Source: Oscillospiraceae bacterium (GTDB taxonomy: Bacteria; Bacillota; Clostridia; Oscillospirales; SIG519). From it: 43,093 bases of DNA. Position 1 is the first letter of the stretch. Every line of letters begins with the position of its first letter. Where the stretch lies: contig SVMS01000019.1 in assembly GCA_015067255.1 (NCBI GenBank), forward strand, positions 1-43,093, written 5' to 3'. The notes below the pieces were generated by a model. It had not been told where the DNA came from and ran no database searches. It worked only from the letters and a program-made list of their open reading frames with translations. Below are positions 1 through 42,909 of the stretch, piece by piece. Both the position numbers and the translations under genes were made by a program.

Positions 1-243
1 CACCGCTATACCTGTTTTTACATTGGTATTGAAAAACAACTCTTCAACAGCCATAGCATCAGGTCTGTATTTATTTATAATAGTAACGAGACTATCGTAA
101 ATTTGCTCCAATCTTTTAGGAAAGCTTATCCCTGCCTGCGTTATTATTGCACCGTAATCAACAGTTTCAAATCTATTCTTTTCATATTTTATAACACCGT
201 AGCCTATTGTAGCATATCCCGGGTCTATCCCTAAAATAATCAT
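1..243 (-). CDS. ruvC: Crossover junction endodeoxyribonuclease RuvC (5' part, cut by window edge)
   Basis: RuvC resolves Holliday junctions with RuvAB. Only the first 81 codons are in the window. The translation begins [16 protein letters not shown], the classic RuvC N-terminus with the first catalytic Asp (D7 in GIDPG), followed by [14 protein letters not shown], which carries the second catalytic acidic residue (the first E of VEELFF). The ATG overlaps the stop of the upstream PLP-enzyme gene in an ATGA four-base overlap, so it is the last visible gene of the operon rlmB - pseudo-ATPase - PLP enzyme - ruvC. ruvA and ruvB would be expected next, beyond the left edge. The identification is firm; only the remainder is missing. 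Confidence 0.95.
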
Positions 244-1472
244 AACTTCATAAGCTCCTGTGCCGCAAACATTACTCCTGCTTTTCCGCTTTCATAAGTA
301 AGTCCGCCTTGAAAGAATACAGTATACGGCTCTTTCATAGGTGCATCTGCAGAAAGCTCTATCGACGAACCTTGAACAAATGCGCCTGCCGCCATTATAA
401 CCTGAGCATCATATCCCGGCATATCCCACGGTTCAGGCGTTAAAAAGCTGTCGACCGGAGCTCCTTTTTGTATCCCTCTGCAAAAAGCTTTTATTTTTTC
501 GGGACAATTAAGTTCAACTGCTTCAATTATATCTGTTCTTACGCTATCCGATGCAGGATTTACTTTATATCCCATATCTTCAAATAAAGCTGCAGCAAAA
601 ACAGCTGTTTTTAAAGCCTGTGCCGTAATATGAGGAGCCATAAAAAATCCTCTAAACATATCTCTGAGAACATTTAGTGTAGCGCCTACCTCATTTCCTA
701 TTCCGGGAGCAGTAAGCCTGCAAGCACATTTTTCTACCAATTCTTTTTTTCCTGCTATATATCCGCCTGTTGGTGCAAGTCCACCGCCCGGGTTTTTTAT
801 CATTGAACCTATTATGAGGTCAGCACCGTGAGATATAGGCTCTGTTTTCTCAACAAATTCACCGTAGCAGTTATCGATTACTACGCTTACATTACTGTTT
901 ATATTTTTAACAAATAAAGCAATTTCCCCTATTTGTTCGCAAGTAAGCGAAGGTCTGTTCATATATCCCTTAGAGCGCTGAATAAAAACAATCTTAACAT
1001 CATCTGTAAGCGCTTTTCTTATACCTTCAAAATCAATTTTATTATCTTTAAAATCAACTTGACGATAATTAACTCCGAAATCCATAAGTGAGCCGTCGCA
1101 CTCTGTAATTCCTATAACGCTGTCCAAGGTATCATAGGGTTTCCCTGTAACCGAAAGAAGAGTATCTCCAGGACGCAATAATCCAAACAAAGCAACTGTT
1201 AACGTATGAGTTCCGGAAACAAAATAATGACTTACAAGAGCATCTTCGCAGTCAAATACATTTGCAAAAACAGCATTAAGCTTTTCTCTTCCTCTATCGT
1301 CATATCCATATCCTGTAGTTCCTGCAAAATCAGCTTCACATACTCTGTTTTCAGAAAAAGCCTTTAAAACCTTAAGCTGATTATATTCGGCAATCTCATC
1401 AATAATTCTAAATTGAGCACTTGCTTTTTCCTGAGCTTTTACAGCCATAGTTGATAACTGTTCGTTAAACAA
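240..1472 (-). CDS. Methionine gamma-lyase family / YnbB-type (aluminium resistance) PLP-dependent protein
   Basis: This is a fold-type I PLP enzyme of the Cys/Met-metabolism superfamily, the YnbB or 'aluminium resistance protein' family. The exact substrate is not established for most members. The [12 protein letters not shown] block near the N-terminus, the SGTHTL phosphate-cup region and the Schiff-base segment [10 protein letters not shown] with its Lys are visible. Length is about 410 residues, normal for the family. An open frame extends to a GTG at 1496, but a GGAGG site lies inside that extension, about 9 bases before the TTG at 1472, so I place the start there. It follows the pseudo-P-type ATPase gene closely and overlaps ruvC by four bases. 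The family call is secure; a catabolic lyase role is inference. Confidence 0.85.
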
Positions 1473-1505
1473 AAAACATTTCCTCCATTTCTGCACTTCT
1501 AAGCA

Positions 1506-3893
1506 TTATAACAACAATGAAATTATCAGACAAAGCAATCCCCATATTCCTTGATATGCAAGCATTTGCTGTGTTTCAACGGGGGTTTGGCTAAATACAA
1601 GAAAAGCAGTCATAGCAAGAGCAATAGCTATGCAAAGCGCACGTAAAATTATACATATTGTTACAGAGCGTTTGATTTTTCCTGCAGCCGTAATTGCATA
1701 TAAAATACCGCAAATCCCGTTTTGAGAAACAACAGTTGCGGGAGTTTTTTCTTTTTTCTCTACAACTGTATTCATTCTTACACTTTTTTTACTGCTGAAA
1801 ACAACAATATCCATATTTTTCAAACAAAAAACTTTTCTTATAAGGTTTTCTGTTATATTTTGGTCATCAGAATTTACGATTAAAGCATTTTCTTCAAAAT
1901 CAAAATCCGAAAGTTGATTGATAACACTTACCTGTGCGCTGTATCTTACAACAAACAGACCTTTAAGAATACCGTTTTTAGAATAGAATATAATGTGCTT
2001 ATTATCGCTTCCGAATTTTTTCACATAATCAGTTTCGGGTAAATCGACGTTTAAATATTCCATAAAGCTTGCATTACCTGCCGCAATTTCATCGTTACCA
2101 AGCTTTCCTGAAACACCCATTTTATCAAATACTTCTATATCTTCAACATCTTTCAAAAACTCATTTTTATTATCCATAAGCTTTAAAAAAGCATATCTTA
2201 ACGGACAATTCACAGCATTATATAAAGAAGCTACAGCTACAGCAACATCAAAAATTTCACTGTCTGCTGACATTTTCATTCCGGTAATTTCTAAATTCTT
2301 TTCAGAAAACAATTCGTGGTCTGAAATAACAAGAGCGTTAGTATCAGAAAATTCCTGAGCAACCGTATAGTTGGTGATAAAAGCTTCTTTTTTAGCAAGC
2401 TTTTTAAGCTTTAAAAAATACGGTAATGAAAAACAAAGTCCCGATATAAAGGGTGCACAAATAGCTGTTGATGCACAAAGACTTGTAAAAGCAACATAAG
2501 CACCGCTTCTTATAAAGCTTACTGCAAAAATAACAAGACATATCAAAAACAAAAACATTCCTGTCTTTTTAGAAAACTTTTCAGAAGGGTCTTTTTCAAA
2601 GCTTCTTTCAAGAAATCCTGTAAAAAAGTCACTTTTGCAAACAGCGGAAATCTTATTGTCGTCAGTATTTATTTCATAAGGCATATCATTTTTTGTTATT
2701 CTTGTAAGAGCAATTTTTTCGTTTTCATTTATCAATATGGAAGAATTGTTACAAACTGCACTTATTCTTAAATATTTGCCAAACAGACATAAGAAAAACG
2801 CAATAGACGGTGCTGCACCGTAAAATACAAATGCGTTTTCTTGAGAAACACCTGCGAGTCCCGAATATACACAAAAAGCAATAGAGATAACCATTGAAAT
2901 AGACGGCAAGGATTCGTTTGAAGGTTTAAATGTAATAAGATTTTTTATTCCCGAAACAAAGCTGCCTAATGCAGTTATTATTAAAAAGAGCATAAGCAAA
3001 ATGCAAGCGGTACAGAAAGCAAAAATATTAACTTCGGGTCTTAAAAATCCTGGTAGTAAAAATGGATAAGCAACGCCTATATTCAAATACAATAAAAGAA
3101 AGGTAAATATTCCTCCGACAAGAGTTTTAAAGGATGCATCTCGTTTTTGAAAGAGTAAATCTTTTACTACTGTTTCCTTATCCTCTATTGATTCAAACTC
3201 ATCAATTTCCACTACAGGTGCTTCTTCTTGTTCAATAGGCTCCTCATCGTCCTCAGCCTCTGCCAAAAGTTTGTTAATAAAGCCCGCCAAACCTTTTTTC
3301 TCAGCTTTTACTTCTTCTGTATTAAGATTATTTTCAAATTTATCTTTATTATCTTCTTCAATCGGATGCTCCGGACGTATTTTTGTATTTGTCTCAGGTA
3401 CCGCAGTCCAGATAGGCATACCGTAATCTTCACGATTGTAAAATTTACGTGGTAGCTCCTGTTCTTTTTCAGCTACAATGACCTTTTCAGGCTCTTCATT
3501 TGTTAAAGCAGAATCTTCTTTAATAGCTATATCTTTGCTCTCCGTAGCTTTATCCTCTTCAGAATTATCGCCATAAAACTCCTGTATGAAGTTTTTCATT
3601 TTATTGCGATTTATAGCTTCTTTTGAAGTAATAGGCTCTTCAACAGGCTTAACATACTCATTAACTCTTTTTTCAAGAGTATCTTTCTGAAGCTTAAATT
3701 CTTTTTTCTCGGATTTTATATCTTCCTTAAGATTTTCAATATTGCTATTAATTTTTTTATCATCAGACTTTTTTATATCTTTTTCGGCATTATCTGCAGA
3801 ATTTTCTTTTTTACCGTTACCAAATTCAGATAATATATCGTCAATACTTATATTTGTATCTCCGAGTCCATCAAAAATATCTTTATCCTGCAC
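1506..3893 (-). CDS. Large membrane protein resembling a catalytically degenerate P-type (P1B-like) ATPase
   Basis: The first ~250 residues are hydrophilic and Glu/Lys-rich, probably disordered. Membrane segments follow at about 257-315, 330-375 and 445-495, then a ~240-residue soluble part and two C-terminal helices (about 742-795). The order matches a heavy-metal P-type ATPase, with remnants of its motifs. ICAPFISGLCFSLP (478-491) sits where the CPC...ATP helix belongs. LVISDHELFS (521-530) sits at the DKTGTLT phosphorylation site, NCPLRYA (562-568) at the SEHPLA nucleotide motif, GNASFM (606-611) at the N-domain GN motif, and NSDDQN (674-679) at TGDN. No GDGxND hinge is present. The phosphorylatable Asp and hinge are therefore missing or displaced, suggesting a pseudoenzyme. 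The start is GTG after a GGGGGGAT site. Role unknown; co-transcription with rlmB is likely (18-base gap). Confidence 0.7.
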   Translation of the reverse strand: MQDKDIFDGLGDTNISIDDILSEFGNGKKENSADNAEKDIKKSDDKKINSNIENLKEDIKSEKKEFKLQKDTLEKRVNEYVKPVEEPITSKEAINRNKMKNFIQEFYGDNSEEDKATESKDIAIKEDSALTNEEPEKVIVAEKEQELPRKFYNREDYGMPIWTAVPETNTKIRPEHPIEEDNKDKFENNLNTEEVKAEKKGLAGFINKLLAEAEDDEEPIEQEEAPVVEIDEFESIEDKETVVKDLLFQKRDASFKTLVGGIFTFLLLYLNIGVAYPFLLPGFLRPEVNIFAFCTACILLMLFLIITALGSFVSGIKNLITFKPSNESLPSISMVISIAFCVYSGLAGVSQENAFVFYGAAPSIAFFLCLFGKYLRISAVCNNSSILINENEKIALTRITKNDMPYEINTDDNKISAVCKSDFFTGFLERSFEKDPSEKFSKKTGMFLFLICLVIFAVSFIRSGAYVAFTSLCASTAICAPFISGLCFSLPYFLKLKKLAKKEAFITNYTVAQEFSDTNALVISDHELFSEKNLEITGMKMSADSEIFDVAVAVASLYNAVNCPLRYAFLKLMDNKNEFLKDVEDIEVFDKMGVSGKLGNDEIAAGNASFMEYLNVDLPETDYVKKFGSDNKHIIFYSKNGILKGLFVVRYSAQVSVINQLSDFDFEENALIVNSDDQNITENLIRKVFCLKNMDIVVFSSKKSVRMNTVVEKKEKTPATVVSQNGICGILYAITAAGKIKRSVTICIILRALCIAIALAMTAFLVFSQTPVETQQMLAYQGIWGLLCLIISLLL

Positions 3894-3911: not shown

Positions 3912-4691
3912 TTATATGTTTTTTAATGACCTGAATTTTGCACATTCCATAAGCACTATTGCTGCAGCGCAGGAAGCATTAAGAGAATTTATTTTGCCAA
4001 ACATAGGAATTTTCAAAAGCATATCACAGCTTTCTCTCATCAATCGGCTCATTCCTTCACCTTCACTGCCTATTACTATTGCCACAGGACAATCATAATC
4101 AGTATCGTAATAGTATCTGTCACCCATACCGTCGGTCCCAAAAACAAACACACCTGCTTTTTTTAATGACCTTACTGTATCGTTAAGATTTGTAACTCTT
4201 GCTATTTTCATATGCTCAGCTGCACCTGCAGAAGATTTATACACAGTACTTGTCATTCCGCAGCTACGTCTTTTCTGAATTATAACCCCATGCGCTCCTG
4301 CACAGTCTGCGCTTCTTATTATTGCTCCTAAATTATGAGGGTCGCTTATTTCGTCTGCTATAACTAAAAACGGCTTTTGATTTTTTGAATATGCATAATC
4401 AAGAATTTCCTCTACCGTTGAATACTCTTTTTGAGTTACATATGCCGCTATACCTTGATGGGATTTTGTTGTAAACATCTTATCGAGACTTTCTCTTCTT
4501 GTAGTTACAACAGGAATTCCTTTTTCGCGTGCCATAGCTATTATTTTTAAAATCAATCCTTCTCTGCTTCCGTCAGCTATAAGAATTTTTTCTATATTTC
4601 TTTCCGCTTTTAAAGCTTCAAAAACAGGATTGCGCCCGCAAATTATTCCCTCGTCTTCAATTTCGTTATTTCTATATTCTTCTCTTCTCAT
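3912..4691 (-). CDS. rlmB: 23S rRNA 2'-O-ribose methyltransferase RlmB / TrmH family (SpoU)
   Basis: This SPOUT-class RNA methyltransferase probably methylates the 2'-OH of a guanosine in 23S rRNA. The N-terminal substrate-binding domain begins with IICGRNPVFEALKAERNIEKI (first ~75 residues). The catalytic domain shows the three SpoU motifs: DEISDPHNLGAIIRSAD (motif 1), IVIGSEGEGMSRL (motif 2) and IPMFGKINSLNASCAAAI (motif 3). Length of 259 residues is typical. It is the first gene of a minus-strand operon with an upstream promoter-like sequence at 4742-4771. The family is certain; the exact target nucleotide (G2251 equivalent) is inferred from closest architecture. Confidence 0.92.
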   Translation of the reverse strand: MRREEYRNNEIEDEGIICGRNPVFEALKAERNIEKILIADGSREGLILKIIAMAREKGIPVVTTRRESLDKMFTTKSHQGIAAYVTQKEYSTVEEILDYAYSKNQKPFLVIADEISDPHNLGAIIRSADCAGAHGVIIQKRRSCGMTSTVYKSSAGAAEHMKIARVTNLNDTVRSLKKAGVFVFGTDGMGDRYYYDTDYDCPVAIVIGSEGEGMSRLMRESCDMLLKIPMFGKINSLNASCAAAIVLMECAKFRSLKNI

Positions 4692-4987: not shown

Positions 4988-6010
4988 TTATTTTTTTTGA
5001 TACGATTTTTCTATACTCATATTAGCACAAGCGTTTAAGTATTTATCACCTAAATTTTTCTCTTTAAATTCAAAGAAAGCCTGAACTCCTATCATCACAG
5101 CATTATCGCCGCAATATTTTACAGACGGTATAAAAAGCTCTATTTTATTATCTGTACACAGCTTATTTGCATATTCTCTCAAGTAAGAGTTGGCAGCCAC
5201 TCCTCCTGCTATACATAAAACGTTGACATTATTTTTAACACATGCAAGCACAGCCTTATCCATAAGAGTTTCGCAAACGGTTTTATTAAAAGAAGCAGCA
5301 ATATCTGCATCAGCAATTTCTCCGCCTTTTTGACGGATGTTATGAACCAAATTATTAACTGCTGTTTTAACACCCGAAAAGCTAAAATCAAAAGGATTGT
5401 CATCAAAACTTACCCTTGGAAGCTTTAAAGCATCAGGATTACCTTTTTTAGAAAGCTTATCAATACTCGGTCCTCCGGGATATGATAACCCTAAAATTCT
5501 CGCCGTTTTATCGTAAGCTTCTCCTGCAGCATCATCTCTTGTCTTTCCTATTATTTCAAAATCTGTATAATCCTTAACAAGAACAATATGAGAATGTCCG
5601 CCCGATGCAACCAGACACATAAACGGAGGCTTTAACTGTGGATTTTCAATATAATTTGCAGCAATATGCCCTCTGATATGATGAACAGGAATGATAGGTC
5701 GTTTTAATGAGGTTGAAAGTCCTTTAGCAAAACTGACACCTGTAAGCAACGCTCCAATTAGTCCCGGTGCATATGTAACTGCTACAGCATCTATATCTGA
5801 GTATTCAAGACCTGCTTGCTCCACAGCCTTTTCAACTACTTCGCTGATACATTTGCTATGCATTCTTGAAGCAACCTCAGGCACAACTCCACCGTAATTA
5901 CTATGAGTTTCAACTTGAGAATAAACTATATCTGACAGAATTTTTTTACCGTCTGCCACAACTGCTGCGGCTGTCTCATCACACGATGATTCTATTGCCA
6001 AAATATTCAC
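4988..6010 (-). CDS. tsaD: tRNA N6-adenosine threonylcarbamoyltransferase TsaD (Gcp/YgjD)
   Basis: TsaD transfers the threonylcarbamoyl group to A37 of ANN-decoding tRNAs, together with TsaB and TsaE (not in the window). The sequence has the ASKHA-fold N-terminus NILAIESSCDETAAAVV, the VPEVASR segment, the metal-binding HHIRGH motif, MCLVASGGHSHIV and the C-terminal CIAGGVAANSYLRE nucleotide motif. The start is ambiguous: an open frame reaches a TTG at 6031 and an ATG at 6022. The GTG at 6010 gives MNILAIESSCDETA, the usual TsaD N-terminus, and I prefer it. It appears to be a single-gene unit. Confidence 0.93.
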   Translation of the reverse strand: MNILAIESSCDETAAAVVADGKKILSDIVYSQVETHSNYGGVVPEVASRMHSKCISEVVEKAVEQAGLEYSDIDAVAVTYAPGLIGALLTGVSFAKGLSTSLKRPIIPVHHIRGHIAANYIENPQLKPPFMCLVASGGHSHIVLVKDYTDFEIIGKTRDDAAGEAYDKTARILGLSYPGGPSIDKLSKKGNPDALKLPRVSFDDNPFDFSFSGVKTAVNNLVHNIRQKGGEIADADIAASFNKTVCETLMDKAVLACVKNNVNVLCIAGGVAANSYLREYANKLCTDNKIELFIPSVKYCGDNAVMIGVQAFFEFKEKNLGDKYLNACANMSIEKSYQKK

Positions 6011-6123
6011 CTTAACGGCCATTCCTTTCAAAAATAAGCATAATAATACATCATATATTAATACATAATATATTATATACTATATATAAGATAAAAGCAA
6101 TAGTATTTTTGCGCTTTATCCAA

Positions 6124-8974: not shown

Positions 8975-9604
8975 TTAATCTTTTTTATCTGACTCATAAA
9001 GCGTTTTATTAAGAGAATTTACACTTACAAGCATTAGTATATAGTTAATAACATCCAATAAAAATACTGTAGAAAAAGCTATAAAAAATCTTCTTATATC
9101 AGCTTCGTCAGACAGTATAAAAATTGCTAATGAAAACAAAAGCGTAATAAGGCCAAAAATTACAATTGATATTATAGAAATTACCTTCAAAAGAGATGTG
9201 GCTTTCATTTGAATTTCTCTTGAAAGAGAAAGCATCAAGAAGCTCAGCACAAACAAAAGAAACACAAAGGAAAGTACACCGTAAAACACCGCTTTACCCG
9301 TTGTAAGCTTACCTTCAAAATTTAAGTTTGACATATTTTTTATAAATGCCGTAATTCTCAACGCATACATAAAAGAAATAGCTAATGATGAAATCTTGTA
9401 TATTATTTTATTTTTATAAAAACTTAAAATAAAAGCACAGAAAAATATTGGTATAAGCGAAACTACCAATAAGGAAAATACGCTTTCTGTATTACCGTAA
9501 TAACCGAGCATAACAAGATTTACATTAGCTTCTAAAAAATGAATACATATGCAAATACATATTGATACAAATGCGTATATGAAAGAAACTGCTTTTAATT
9601 TCAT
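8975..9604 (-). CDS. Hypothetical multi-pass membrane protein
   Basis: I do not recognise this 209-residue protein. It has about six hydrophobic helices (around residues 5-25, 40-60, 68-90, 105-127, 138-165 and 170-195) separated by short charged loops, and a charged C-terminus ESDKKD. It starts 18 bases after the pfkA stop with an AAGGAA site before the ATG, so it is likely co-transcribed with pfkA. No catalytic motif is visible. A transporter or sensor role cannot be argued from sequence. Confidence 0.7.
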   Translation of the reverse strand: MKLKAVSFIYAFVSICICICIHFLEANVNLVMLGYYGNTESVFSLLVVSLIPIFFCAFILSFYKNKIIYKISSLAISFMYALRITAFIKNMSNLNFEGKLTTGKAVFYGVLSFVFLLFVLSFLMLSLSREIQMKATSLLKVISIISIVIFGLITLLFSLAIFILSDEADIRRFFIAFSTVFLLDVINYILMLVSVNSLNKTLYESDKKD

Positions 9605-38301: not shown

Positions 38302-38865
38302 TTAAACAGATAAATTAAATGTTGAAATTTTCTCTCCGTACTTATTACAAAATTCTATAATAGTTTTTTCAACCTGATTATAAAGCTCTGATTTCGTTTC
38401 TATTAAAGAAGCTCTTTTATTTTCAGCTATATTTAATATATTTCCGGAAAGCTTCTTTAATTCTATAGTTGTCTCTTTAAATAAATCAAGTGCTTCTTGC
38501 AATTTATCCCCTTGCATATCTTTTACAGCAATATCTTGTGCCAATCCATAATAATAGGTTTGCAAAAAGGCAGTATACTTTGAATCGCCACTGAACACAG
38601 GATATAATCCATCTGTGTTTGAATAAATCTTGGCATTTATATATAAATAACTTTCTTTTATAGCATCTTTTGTAAATCCTTGATTTTCGGTTTTCCATGC
38701 CATATGATAAATTTCATTCCAATGATTATAATTGTGTTCTGCAACAATATGTTTCCACTGTTCTTTTTCATTATGTAATTTTAGAAATACAGAACCTAAC
38801 AAAATTATAACTACAAGAACAAACGTCAATGAAATATATATTGTTCTTTTATTAGCTGATTTCAC
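38302..38865 (-). CDS. Hypothetical single-pass membrane protein, third gene of the TIR operon
   Basis: I do not recognise the family. Residues 1-7 are basic, 8-28 form one hydrophobic helix (IYISLTFVLVVIILLGSVFL), and the remaining ~160 residues are a mostly helical soluble part. By the positive-inside rule that part lies outside the cell. It has no Cys pair or enzymatic motif. A heptad-like C-terminal stretch (LQEALDLFKETTIELKKLSG) suggests a helical bundle. The start is GTG after AAGGAG, 23 bases behind the TIR gene, so it is in the same operon. A role as effector or anchor for the TIR pair is inference only. Confidence 0.7.
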   Translation of the reverse strand: MKSANKRTIYISLTFVLVVIILLGSVFLKLHNEKEQWKHIVAEHNYNHWNEIYHMAWKTENQGFTKDAIKESYLYINAKIYSNTDGLYPVFSGDSKYTAFLQTYYYGLAQDIAVKDMQGDKLQEALDLFKETTIELKKLSGNILNIAENKRASLIETKSELYNQVEKTIIEFCNKYGEKISTFNLSV

Positions 38866-38888: not shown

Positions 38889-40028
38889 TCAGACGGATTT
38901 TCTTGCAGCGTGAGGACAAAGGAAATTGTTGGTGAATTCATGATTTAAGCGGAAAAGGCCTTGCATACGTCGTTCCGGCAAGGAAAGATAAATACGGCCA
39001 CCAAGCATCGAATTAGATGCGCTAGGATTCATTCCCGCTTTTTCCAAAAGAGCCATAATCAAATCATAACGTGTGTTATCCTGAACATCCATAATAAACT
39101 TGAATTCTGTTCCGTACAGCTTGTGTACAGGAACATGGAACATAATGCAGCCTTTTTCAATACGTTTACCTTGACGATTTAAATCACCCTGACGATAAAC
39201 CTTGCCATTGTACATCACATGATTTAAAAGCACACATTCCTTATTTTCCTCTCCCAAAGTTCTTGGCAGTGAAAGAGCGCAAGGGATTCCGTTTTGTGGA
39301 CAAGCTCTATCTTCCAAAGGAACACAGCGGTTTCTGGCATAGCAATGCTCCCCATCTCCGTGGTCAGCGTAAAACATTCCAAAATTAGGAATTAGTGTTC
39401 CTATCTTACATTCGGCAAAATCACTGTAATATTCATCAAAAATATTACTTTCCAAAGTAACGATTACTGTTTCTGCATATTCCTTCATTCTTTTACGGAA
39501 AGTTGTACAGTCTAAATAGGCATTTTCTTCACAAAACATATCAGCATAAGGAGAAAGGTCTCGTATAGCATCAAGAAGGCTTTCCAAGCTGTTAAATGCA
39601 GGGAGAAAACGGTTGAGATGTGCATCTGCAAATTTGCGAAAATCCACGCTATCCTCCTTAGGTGCAGTATTCAAAATACCATTTGGGTCCCAAAGATAAA
39701 CAGGAATATTCTTCCCCGAAAGTATACCAATCTCATAATTGACCCAATGGGAATGCAAGGATGCCTCGGTTATTATAATTACCGCCGCATAACAATCCAA
39801 AGTGCGCTCGATTTTGCTTTGAAAATCGTCTCCCCCGGACAAGAAATCACGATCGCAAAGAGGATAAAGTCCCATTTCAAGCATAGCATTTCGCAGAGGA
39901 TAAAGGCAATCCTCATTGTCAGCATTAGCGTGAGAAATAAATATCCCATAGAACTTTTTCTCGTCCTCTTCTAATTGTCTTGTAGTAAAATCAAAATCTC
40001 CCAAACGGGAGCCTCTCGGTTCTAACAT
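38889..40028 (-). CDS. TIR-domain protein with unknown C-terminal domain
   Basis: Residues ~26-120 form a TIR domain: FYGIFISHANADNED (first strand and loop), PLRNAMLEMGLYPLCDRDF, IERTLDCYAAVIIITEASLHSHW, then VNYEIGILSGKNIPVYLWD. Glu99 sits where TIR NADases carry their catalytic Glu. Residues ~160-379 are a domain I do not recognise, with a Cys-rich stretch (C229, C235, C243, C250) that might bind metal, and the motif VPVHKLYGTEFKF near 299. The neighbour gene has the same design. The ATG has a strong AAAGGAGG site. TIR proteins in bacteria often act in NAD+ depletion or signalling defence; that role here is inference. Confidence 0.85.
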   Translation of the reverse strand: MLEPRGSRLGDFDFTTRQLEEDEKKFYGIFISHANADNEDCLYPLRNAMLEMGLYPLCDRDFLSGGDDFQSKIERTLDCYAAVIIITEASLHSHWVNYEIGILSGKNIPVYLWDPNGILNTAPKEDSVDFRKFADAHLNRFLPAFNSLESLLDAIRDLSPYADMFCEENAYLDCTTFRKRMKEYAETVIVTLESNIFDEYYSDFAECKIGTLIPNFGMFYADHGDGEHCYARNRCVPLEDRACPQNGIPCALSLPRTLGEENKECVLLNHVMYNGKVYRQGDLNRQGKRIEKGCIMFHVPVHKLYGTEFKFIMDVQDNTRYDLIMALLEKAGMNPSASNSMLGGRIYLSLPERRMQGLFRLNHEFTNNFLCPHAARKSV

Positions 40029-40046: not shown

Positions 40047-41195
40047 TTACTGTGGGAAAATAAAGTCTACCGTCTCCCCTACATTTAAAGCGGGGTCAGC
40101 TTTTAGAAGAGGTCTTAGTAATTCAAAATTCAATGAAAAATACAGACGGTTAAAACGAGTATCCACATGCGATTGCTCGGGGTAGATTCCCTTCCAATAA
40201 GAAGCGTCTTCATAGCGGTCAAAATCAAGCTCCGAAATGCTTCCTTCTGCAAAGTCAGGCTCCATCAAGGCAAGAAGCATAAACACAGGACAATCTGTAT
40301 CTCGGCAAGTCAAATAGCATTTTATATATGCTCCGAGGATTTTATGTACAGGAATCAACACATCGAATACAAATTCAGCACGAATTCCGCTTTCCTCACG
40401 TTCATTAGCAGTAAAACGACGATAAGACTTCTTTCCTACAAAGGACTTGGGATAATCCGCAATGTAAGGATGTACCTCCTCCTTATAAACCATCATCTGC
40501 GGCTCTAAGCGTTCTTCTGCACCAAAGCTGACAACACGGCATCCGCAAATAAGATGCTCTTCCAAGAAATTATCAAATTCACTGTCTGAACGGTTATAAC
40601 CTGTAATGTCATTATAATATAGCTTAGCATTTTGAAAAGCTTCTTCATAAATATTAAAGGATATACGCAGGCATTGAAAATTAATGCGACGGGCAGCATA
40701 AAAATTTGTAGTACGATTTTCATAATAATTATAACGAAGCAGTTTAGATGCAAATTTTTCCGGTATTTTAGACATAAAAGTATCTGCATCAAATATAATA
40801 TCAATTCCCTGCAAGGGTGTTCCCTTCAAATCGGGCACTCCATCATCCTGATTTTTAGGAATGTAAGGCACAATGGATTCTTGCAATTTAGAACGGATAT
40901 ATCCGATAAAATACCAAAACATAGAACAAGATACTAAATTCTCTTCTTCAAACAACTGCTTATTGAGTACTGGTATCAGACAAGCACAATGATTTAATAA
41001 TGTCACAATCTCATCAAAGGCATTTCCCTTCACCAAAAGCGACTCTCCTACAGCACGACAATGATATACGTGTCCGGAAATATCCAATCTTTCTCGCAAT
41101 GGCGCAACTAATTCCGGATATCCCTCCGGATATAGAATAATTAAATCTCCGTAATATTCTCGAATGTCAAAATGTGAATCCGAAATCAGTTTCAT
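40047..41195 (-). CDS. TIR-like paralogue of the downstream TIR protein, catalytic Glu missing
   Basis: The architecture matches the next gene: 382 versus 379 residues. YYGDLIILYPEG aligns with FYGIFISHANAD and APLRERLDISG with YPLRNAMLEMG at the same spacing, and YFIGYIRSK with YEIGILSGK. At the last site Phe replaces the candidate catalytic Glu. Shared C-terminal motif: LIPVHKILGAYIK versus VPVHKLYGTEFK, then CPVFMLLALMEP versus YDLIMALLEKAG. It therefore looks like a TIR pseudoenzyme partner. The frame extends to 41276, but that ATG lies upstream of the -10 element. AGGGAG precedes the ATG at 41195, which I take as the start. An 18-base gap separates it from the active TIR gene. Confidence 0.75.
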   Translation of the reverse strand: MKLISDSHFDIREYYGDLIILYPEGYPELVAPLRERLDISGHVYHCRAVGESLLVKGNAFDEIVTLLNHCACLIPVLNKQLFEEENLVSCSMFWYFIGYIRSKLQESIVPYIPKNQDDGVPDLKGTPLQGIDIIFDADTFMSKIPEKFASKLLRYNYYENRTTNFYAARRINFQCLRISFNIYEEAFQNAKLYYNDITGYNRSDSEFDNFLEEHLICGCRVVSFGAEERLEPQMMVYKEEVHPYIADYPKSFVGKKSYRRFTANEREESGIRAEFVFDVLIPVHKILGAYIKCYLTCRDTDCPVFMLLALMEPDFAEGSISELDFDRYEDASYWKGIYPEQSHVDTRFNRLYFSLNFELLRPLLKADPALNVGETVDFIFPQ

Positions 41196-41255
41196 ACGTT
41201 TCTCCCTATTGTAATATTTTTTATTTTCCATTACAAAAATCTTTTTTTCTTTTCT

Positions 41256-41284
41256 ATTATAAAGGCTTTGTCGCAAAATAGCAA
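41256..41284 (-). promoter_or_regulatory. Sigma-A-like promoter for the TIR operon
   Basis: On the minus strand TTGCTA, 17 bases, TATAAT, about 60 bases before the ATG at 41195. It supports transcription of the three genes as a unit and the shorter start. Confidence 0.65.
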
Positions 41285-42144: not shown

Positions 42145-42549
42145 TTATTTCTTTTTGGATTTAAGTGCTTTTATAACTTTTTTACACAAAACTAATTCGC
42201 TTGTAAAATCCGAGCGTGCTCTAATTGTTTTGCCATCTATGTTTGTTTCAACAATTTTCTTGTGTCGCTTTTTTAACCTTTTATAATAATTTTTAATCAA
42301 AGGAATGAAACGAACATCCTTTAATTTTTCAATAACCCAAAGATAAGGAATACCATAATAATCTTTTTCTTCTTCGAAAAGTTCAAGAAACCATTCATCG
42401 ATTAATGTTTTTTCTTCATCAGAAAGATTATCAAAATCTACAGCAGCGTGCTCAGCAGCACGTCCCATAGAAATGCCGTAAGTTTCAGGAGAAAAAGCAT
42501 CATAAAATATTTTAAACTCTTTTGAAAGAGCATCAAAATCAAATATCAT
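42145..42549 (-). CDS. Hypothetical protein, second gene of the four-helix-bundle pair
   Basis: I do not recognise this 134-residue protein. The first half is acidic (FDALSKEFKIFYDAFSPETYG, DFDNLSDEEKTLIDEWFLEL). The second half is strongly basic (NYYKRLKKRHKKIVE, VIKALKSKKK), so it could bind nucleic acid. It starts in an ATGA overlap with the end of the four-helix-bundle gene, so the two are translationally coupled and likely act together. No catalytic motif is visible. Confidence 0.7.
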   Translation of the reverse strand: MIFDFDALSKEFKIFYDAFSPETYGISMGRAAEHAAVDFDNLSDEEKTLIDEWFLELFEEEKDYYGIPYLWVIEKLKDVRFIPLIKNYYKRLKKRHKKIVETNIDGKTIRARSDFTSELVLCKKVIKALKSKKK

Positions 42550-42896
42550 TTTGAATTCTCCTTTGCAGTATTCAACGATGCTATTAACATTCTTTTTATT
42601 TCTTCTGCAGGTGAAAGCAAACTATCAAAATTATAATCGATTAAGTTGGTTCTTTTTAAAAGCATAAGCCAATAAATACTTTCACCTGTTTCTTTAAGAG
42701 CAATATGTAATTTTGATATAAAATCGGCTTTACTGTTGCCGTATATTGCTTCGTTTATATTGGCACCCACACTTGTAGCAGAGCGCAGTAATTGTTTTGC
42801 AATTGTTGTATCTTTTTTTGTTTTAGAAAATTCTTCATAAAATAAGACAATTTTTGTTGCAAAATCAAGTGATTTTTCGAGTAACGGACTATTCAT
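42546..42896 (-). CDS. Four helix bundle protein (23S rRNA intervening-sequence / S23 family)
   Basis: The ~116-residue protein has the pattern LLEKSLDFATKIVLFYEEF, KQLLRSATSVGANINEA and KLHIALKETGESIYWLMLL that defines the S23/four-helix-bundle family. The family is widespread and includes the Avd proteins of diversity-generating retroelements. Function outside retroelements is unknown, and no reverse transcriptase is seen here. The frame opens at GTG 42905, but AGAGG fits the ATG at 42896. It leads a two-gene operon with a strong promoter. Confidence 0.9.
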   Translation of the reverse strand: MNSPLLEKSLDFATKIVLFYEEFSKTKKDTTIAKQLLRSATSVGANINEAIYGNSKADFISKLHIALKETGESIYWLMLLKRTNLIDYNFDSLLSPAEEIKRMLIASLNTAKENSK

Positions 42897-42909
42897 TATC
42901 TTCACCTCT

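Follow-up and report, generated by a model that had tools for sequence, protein, structure and literature searches.

What does a protein do when it has the layout of a P1B-type ATPase and has lost the motifs of a pump? The question is raised by a gene in the window (the whole 43,093-nucleotide stretch of DNA that was analysed), which a preliminary description, made from the sequence, had taken for a conserved, catalytically dead pump with a charged N-terminus, encoded in an operon with rlmB and ruvC.

Gene and local gene order

The open reading frame of this pseudo-pump (1506-3893, minus strand, 795 aa) was real in the translation of the window and had exactly the limits first proposed. It starts with a GTG codon, and a purine-rich GGGGGG stretch lies just upstream. 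The gene and its closest neighbours are:

240..1496, minus strand: methionine gamma-lyase-like gene, 9 bases downstream of the pseudo-pump gene; a neighbour not conserved in other genomes
1506..3893, minus strand: pseudo-P1B-ATPase gene, 795 aa, GTG start, assigned by homologues and predicted fold
3912..4691, minus strand: rlmB, SpoU-family rRNA methyltransferase, the constant upstream partner of the pseudo-pump gene

Upstream of rlmB, across a gap of 296 bases, lies tsaD (4988-6031), followed by spoVAD. No ruvC was present at the pseudo-pump locus; the neighbour that had been given this name is tsaD. Promoter and terminator scans performed no better than chance, and Rfam gave no match.

Elsewhere in the window, a TIR-domain protein (38889-40028, minus strand) is encoded between two ORFs that both lack a Pfam match (38302-38865 and 40047-41276), a neighbourhood that is possibly a defence locus. 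A member of the 23S rRNA intervening-sequence protein family is found at 42546-42905 (minus strand), and a 209-aa membrane protein without a Pfam family (8975-9604, minus strand) adjoins phosphofructokinase and dnaE.

Predicted fold and P1B ancestry

A Pfam search with the window protein returned no P-type ATPase at any E value up to 10. The NCBIfam CopA model matched residues 478-698 (E=3e-6), and the protein alone matched Legionella CopA (LpCopA) in the PDB (E=4e-4). We built a family profile from 29 order-wide homologues, an unbiased set referred to as A1, and with this profile LpCopA was the first PDB match (E=7e-31), the other copper ATPases coming next. Profile-profile alignment (hhalign) of the family with 23 genuine pumps from the same order extended from the first helix to M5 over 517 columns (probability 99.9, E=3e-31), so that homology was traced along the full core. 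Similarly, TIGR01525 matched 33 of 73 members at E<=0.01, scores that lie below its curated cut-off.

The AlphaFold model of the window protein's core with 72 relatives reached a pLDDT of 84.8 and a pTM of 0.84, and structural comparison (Foldseek, VIA-align) placed LpCopA (3rfu), with Z=23.1 over 487 residues, and then ATP7B and HMA4 among the top matches. A second member, from Papillibacter cinnamivorans, gave Z=23.5 to LpCopA. The MA/MB pair, the six core helices and the P and N domains were all present in these predicted models. The P1B skeleton that had been read in order from the sequence is thus borne out, far beyond chance, by profiles, alignment and structure comparison, and the unrelated fold raised as a counter-possibility was not what modelling returned. 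Profiles and predicted models agree in establishing the pseudo-pump proteins as one coherent family, descended from copper-type P1B ATPases. Family and pumps formed separate groups in a tree; because this was rooted at its midpoint, it is silent on the P1B branch of origin. The predicted architecture is as follows, with MA and MB named by homology:

3180..3893, minus strand: charged N-terminal tail, probably disordered, residues 1-238, without a metal-binding CxxC
3822..3845, minus strand: tail motif IDDILSEF, residues 17-24 (family pattern [LIV][DE][DES]IL.E[FY])
2934..3179, minus strand: MA and kinked MB helices, residues 239-275 and 290-320, the P1B-type N-terminal pair (DSSP on the model, aligned to LpCopA)
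2706..2912, minus strand: M1 and M2 helices, residues 328-347 and 360-396 (model)
2589..2705, minus strand: A-domain remnant, residues 397-435, TGE loop missing (alignment gap relative to pumps; two short strands in the model)
2391..2588, minus strand: M3 and M4 helices; the CPC site reads A480-P481-F482 (alignment and model)
2307..2321, minus strand: phosphorylation-site equivalent D525-H-E-L-F529, DKTGT in pumps (profile alignment)
1929..2273, minus strand: N domain, residues 541-655; the HP site reads C563-P564; G593 and G606 invariant (alignment and model)
1851..1871, minus strand: TGDN equivalent S675-D676-D677-Q-N-I-T681; D677 nearly invariant (alignment)
1716..1823, minus strand: P-domain end, shortened; GDGxND segment deleted (alignment)
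1512..1715, minus strand: M5 and M6 helices, residues 727-767 and 774-794; W784 conserved (alignment and model)

Pump motifs and retained residues

P-type ATPases are defined by a phosphorylated Asp. DKTGT was found in 0 of 119 distinct family members and in 23 of the 23 pumps of the order, and the same counts applied to the GDGxND hinge and Mg2+ site, whose segment is deleted, as had been noticed at the outset. Among 102 aligned rows, none carried the CPC metal site in M4 (a Cys stood at either position in 6) and none carried the HP (SEHPL) motif of the N domain, which reads CP in the window protein as previously stated; M4 contained no conserved metal ligands. The A domain, whose reduction the preliminary description had missed, comprises about 40 residues, and its TGE segment is absent from both alignment and model. 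As judged from the alignments, the motifs that serve phosphoryl transfer, dephosphorylation and the binding of Mg2+ and of metal have all gone from the family. Given the established P-type mechanism, neither the cycle of phosphorylation nor the usual route of the metal could then run as in a pump.

Two motif readings required correction. The proposed equivalence of DKTGT with SDHEL was one residue out of register, since profile alignment pairs DKTGT with D525-H-E-L-F529 and the Asp is kept; KTGT is lost in all of A1, and the Asp is present in the window protein and in 20 of the 29 A1 sequences. TGDN is indeed altered: in register it corresponds to S675-D676-D677-Q678, and here too the Asp is retained, D677 being found in 28/29 and N679 in 25/29 members of A1. 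The term "catalytically dead" is right for the P-type cycle, with one or two acidic residues remaining at the old active site.

The head domains (P and N) are the most conserved part of the protein, above most transport helices: conservation in A1 was 0.40 for the N domain, 0.43 for the first part of the P domain and 0.42 for M6, compared with 0.34-0.38 from MA to M5. G593 and G606 of the N domain were invariant in A1, and G606, which belongs to the GN motif, was present in 29/29 and 73/73 sequences. Many members carry DxD[LIV]FP at the former phosphorylation site and RDFN at the former TGD site. The conservation of DxD and RDFN is inflated in sets A6-A8, because the named loci in them were recruited with these two patterns; in the unbiased A1 it is weaker and points in the same direction.

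These acidic residues bring up a reading in which some chemistry was retained, the protein working either as an altered HAD-type phosphohydrolase or phosphotransferase through the DxD at 525/527 and D677, or as a transporter with another cycle. In most members, positions 524/525 and 527 are indeed acidic, a pair of acids with this spacing is reminiscent of HAD motif I, and the near-invariance of D677 points the same way. However, Asp 525 is replaced or shifted in 9 of 29 members, and the acidic residues of HAD phosphohydrolase motif IV were not found, the corresponding segment being the deleted GDGxND with its Mg2+ ligand. Together with the missing TGE dephosphorylation loop and an M4 that lacks conserved metal ligands, this makes retained chemistry unlikely.

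Neighbouring genes

The proposed linkage to rlmB was real and extended across the order. The gene immediately upstream, in the same orientation, was rlmB in 72 of 80 named loci, and contig ends or effects of spacing or overlap explain most of the remaining eight; in a wider set rlmB was found at 113 of 123 loci, with a median gap of 25 bases. Profile match, restriction to the order and rlmB adjacency went together in the family, and no other constant neighbour was seen in the loci examined. Shared expression may by itself explain the linkage. In 42 loci the pseudo-pump is followed by an EF-G-like GTPase gene. Around rlmB, some parts of the order repeatedly have metK, a rhomboid-like gene or FtsH, names that were given by eye from the sequence. 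One family (f18) includes three genomes that encode a second motif-less P-type ATPase directly upstream of rlmB (L034:11125-13578, minus strand; L043:4740-6947, plus strand; L044:10954-13161, minus strand).

Two further readings assign the protein a partner. It could serve one of the cell's genuine P-type pumps as a regulatory subunit: real P1B pumps were present in 15 of the 15 genomes checked, and one family encodes a second dead pump in the same cluster. Since no genetic linkage to real pumps appeared in the regions examined and, to our knowledge, pairing between P1B ATPases is not usual, we give this reading a low probability. Alternatively, the protein could be a membrane anchor placing RlmB, or ribosomes and their assembly, at the membrane. 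This would suit rlmB as the one constant neighbour, at a spacing that fits one transcript, and the EF-G-like gene that comes next in many loci. RlmB is elsewhere a soluble enzyme, the support consists of linkage, and no shared motif was found, so that the anchor reading appears improbable.

Distribution and selection

A single-sequence search detected the family in 56 of 59 relatives' genomes, and at least one of the missed genomes (G041) was recovered by profile. In the survey of the order, at E<=1e-30, 292 of 297 genomes (>=95% complete) and 134 of 136 genera were positive; genuine pumps score about 1e-25 at best with the family profile, which leaves the few matches around 1e-33 uncertain. 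Among 291 genomes drawn from the class, 12 matched at 1e-45, all of them within the order, which we infer to be Oscillospirales of the GTDB. A wider distribution was rejected, as ordinary pumps alone matched outside the order. The named loci came from Oscillospiraceae, close relatives or clostridial MAGs (Flavonifractor, Pseudoflavonifractor, Papillibacter, Intestinimonas, Lawsonibacter).

Reading frames were intact across about 26 families, and in 14 pairs dN/dS was 0.04-0.20 for the core and 0.06-0.47 for the tails where measurable, showing strong purifying selection on the core. The preliminary idea of a conserved pseudo-pump is supported by these values, by the fold and by the occurrence in the order; the alternative foreseen with it, that the homologues are random, decaying and functionless copies of a real pump, would explain the lost motifs and is refuted by the intact frames, order-wide presence, low dN/dS and invariant residues, leaving it next to no probability.

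Two genomes carry the gene broken into two frames: at L068:4164-6557 (the same gene as in L007) by an in-frame TGA, and at G010:C45:25721-27438 by a break after the N-domain region. Either sequencing error or real splitting could account for these cases.

N-terminal tail

As initially described, a charged region takes the place of the metal-binding domains: residues 1-225 contain 60 D/E, 37 K/R and no Cys, and CxxC occurred in 1 of 112 tails across the family. Pfam searches on the longest tails gave no domains, a low-complexity match apart, and in the Papillibacter model the pLDDT of the tail was mostly below 50. Within the tail we found a short conserved motif that had gone unnoticed, [LIV][DE][DES]IL.E[FY] (family form SLDDILAEF), in 87 of 112 members and in 0.1% of shuffled tails. 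It is missing in some members, and was modelled with moderate confidence as a short helix (pLDDT about 64). The motif was rejected as a genome-wide short motif, since, apart from a single chance match in an HTH protein, a DNA-pattern search of 20 genomes recovered family members only. In one family (L013, L015, L019) the protein consists of the membrane core and lacks both charged tail and motif.

Proposed role and comparison with known systems

The pseudo-pump probably goes back to an ancient copy of a copper-type P1B-ATPase, which took on the role of a non-pumping scaffold or receptor in the membrane before the order had diversified. Eight helices would anchor a cytosolic head made of the N domain and the shortened P domain. 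In place of ATP turnover, the former catalytic cleft with its new conserved residues (DxDxFP, RDFN) would offer a binding site for a ligand or partner, and the flexible acidic tail, through the helix-forming SLDDILAEF, may hold a second cytosolic partner at the membrane; an anchored head, a binding cleft and a recruiting tail would together make a membrane scaffold or receptor. The protein would be made together with RlmB.

On balance, we also favour the broader view that a core gene of the whole order uses the P-type fold without pumping, the head, which has a conserved pocket of its own, serving as a membrane receptor or scaffold and the peptide tail recruiting a partner, and that this branch is absent from the literature searched. 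That search, which covered few subscription papers, returned no description of a dead P-type family. If this holds, the P-type fold can be conserved for a non-pumping use, one kept in about 98% of the genomes of a dominant gut order, and the pseudo-pump is likely an important gene of abundant commensals, represented in the window by a protein that goes unrecognised by Pfam. In short, a well-known pump fold seems to have been put to a new use.

Altered P-type sequences have been recorded before: in one survey (PMC3896382), 22 P-type ATPases had a changed DKTGT, or 0.23% of 9,634, and 99.77% kept it. These variants resemble the pseudo-pump in lacking an intact DKTGT. They are, however, single point changes, whereas the pseudo-pump is a whole orthologous family in which every one of the motifs has been lost. 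The dead ATPase of family f18 is likewise a motif-less P-type ATPase of the same gene cluster; unlike the pseudo-pump, it is P2A-like, of the Ca2+-ATPase type, keeps its A domain despite the loss of TGES and DKTGT, and was seen in three genomes only. The closest known systems are the P1B copper ATPases (Legionella CopA, PDB 3rfu/4bbj; ATP7B; HMA4), with which the pseudo-pump shares MA/MB, M1-M6, the N domain and the core of the P domain. In contrast to them, it has no DKTGT, TGE, GDGxND, CPC or HP and only a remnant of the A domain, and where they have CxxC metal-binding domains it carries a charged tail with a new motif.
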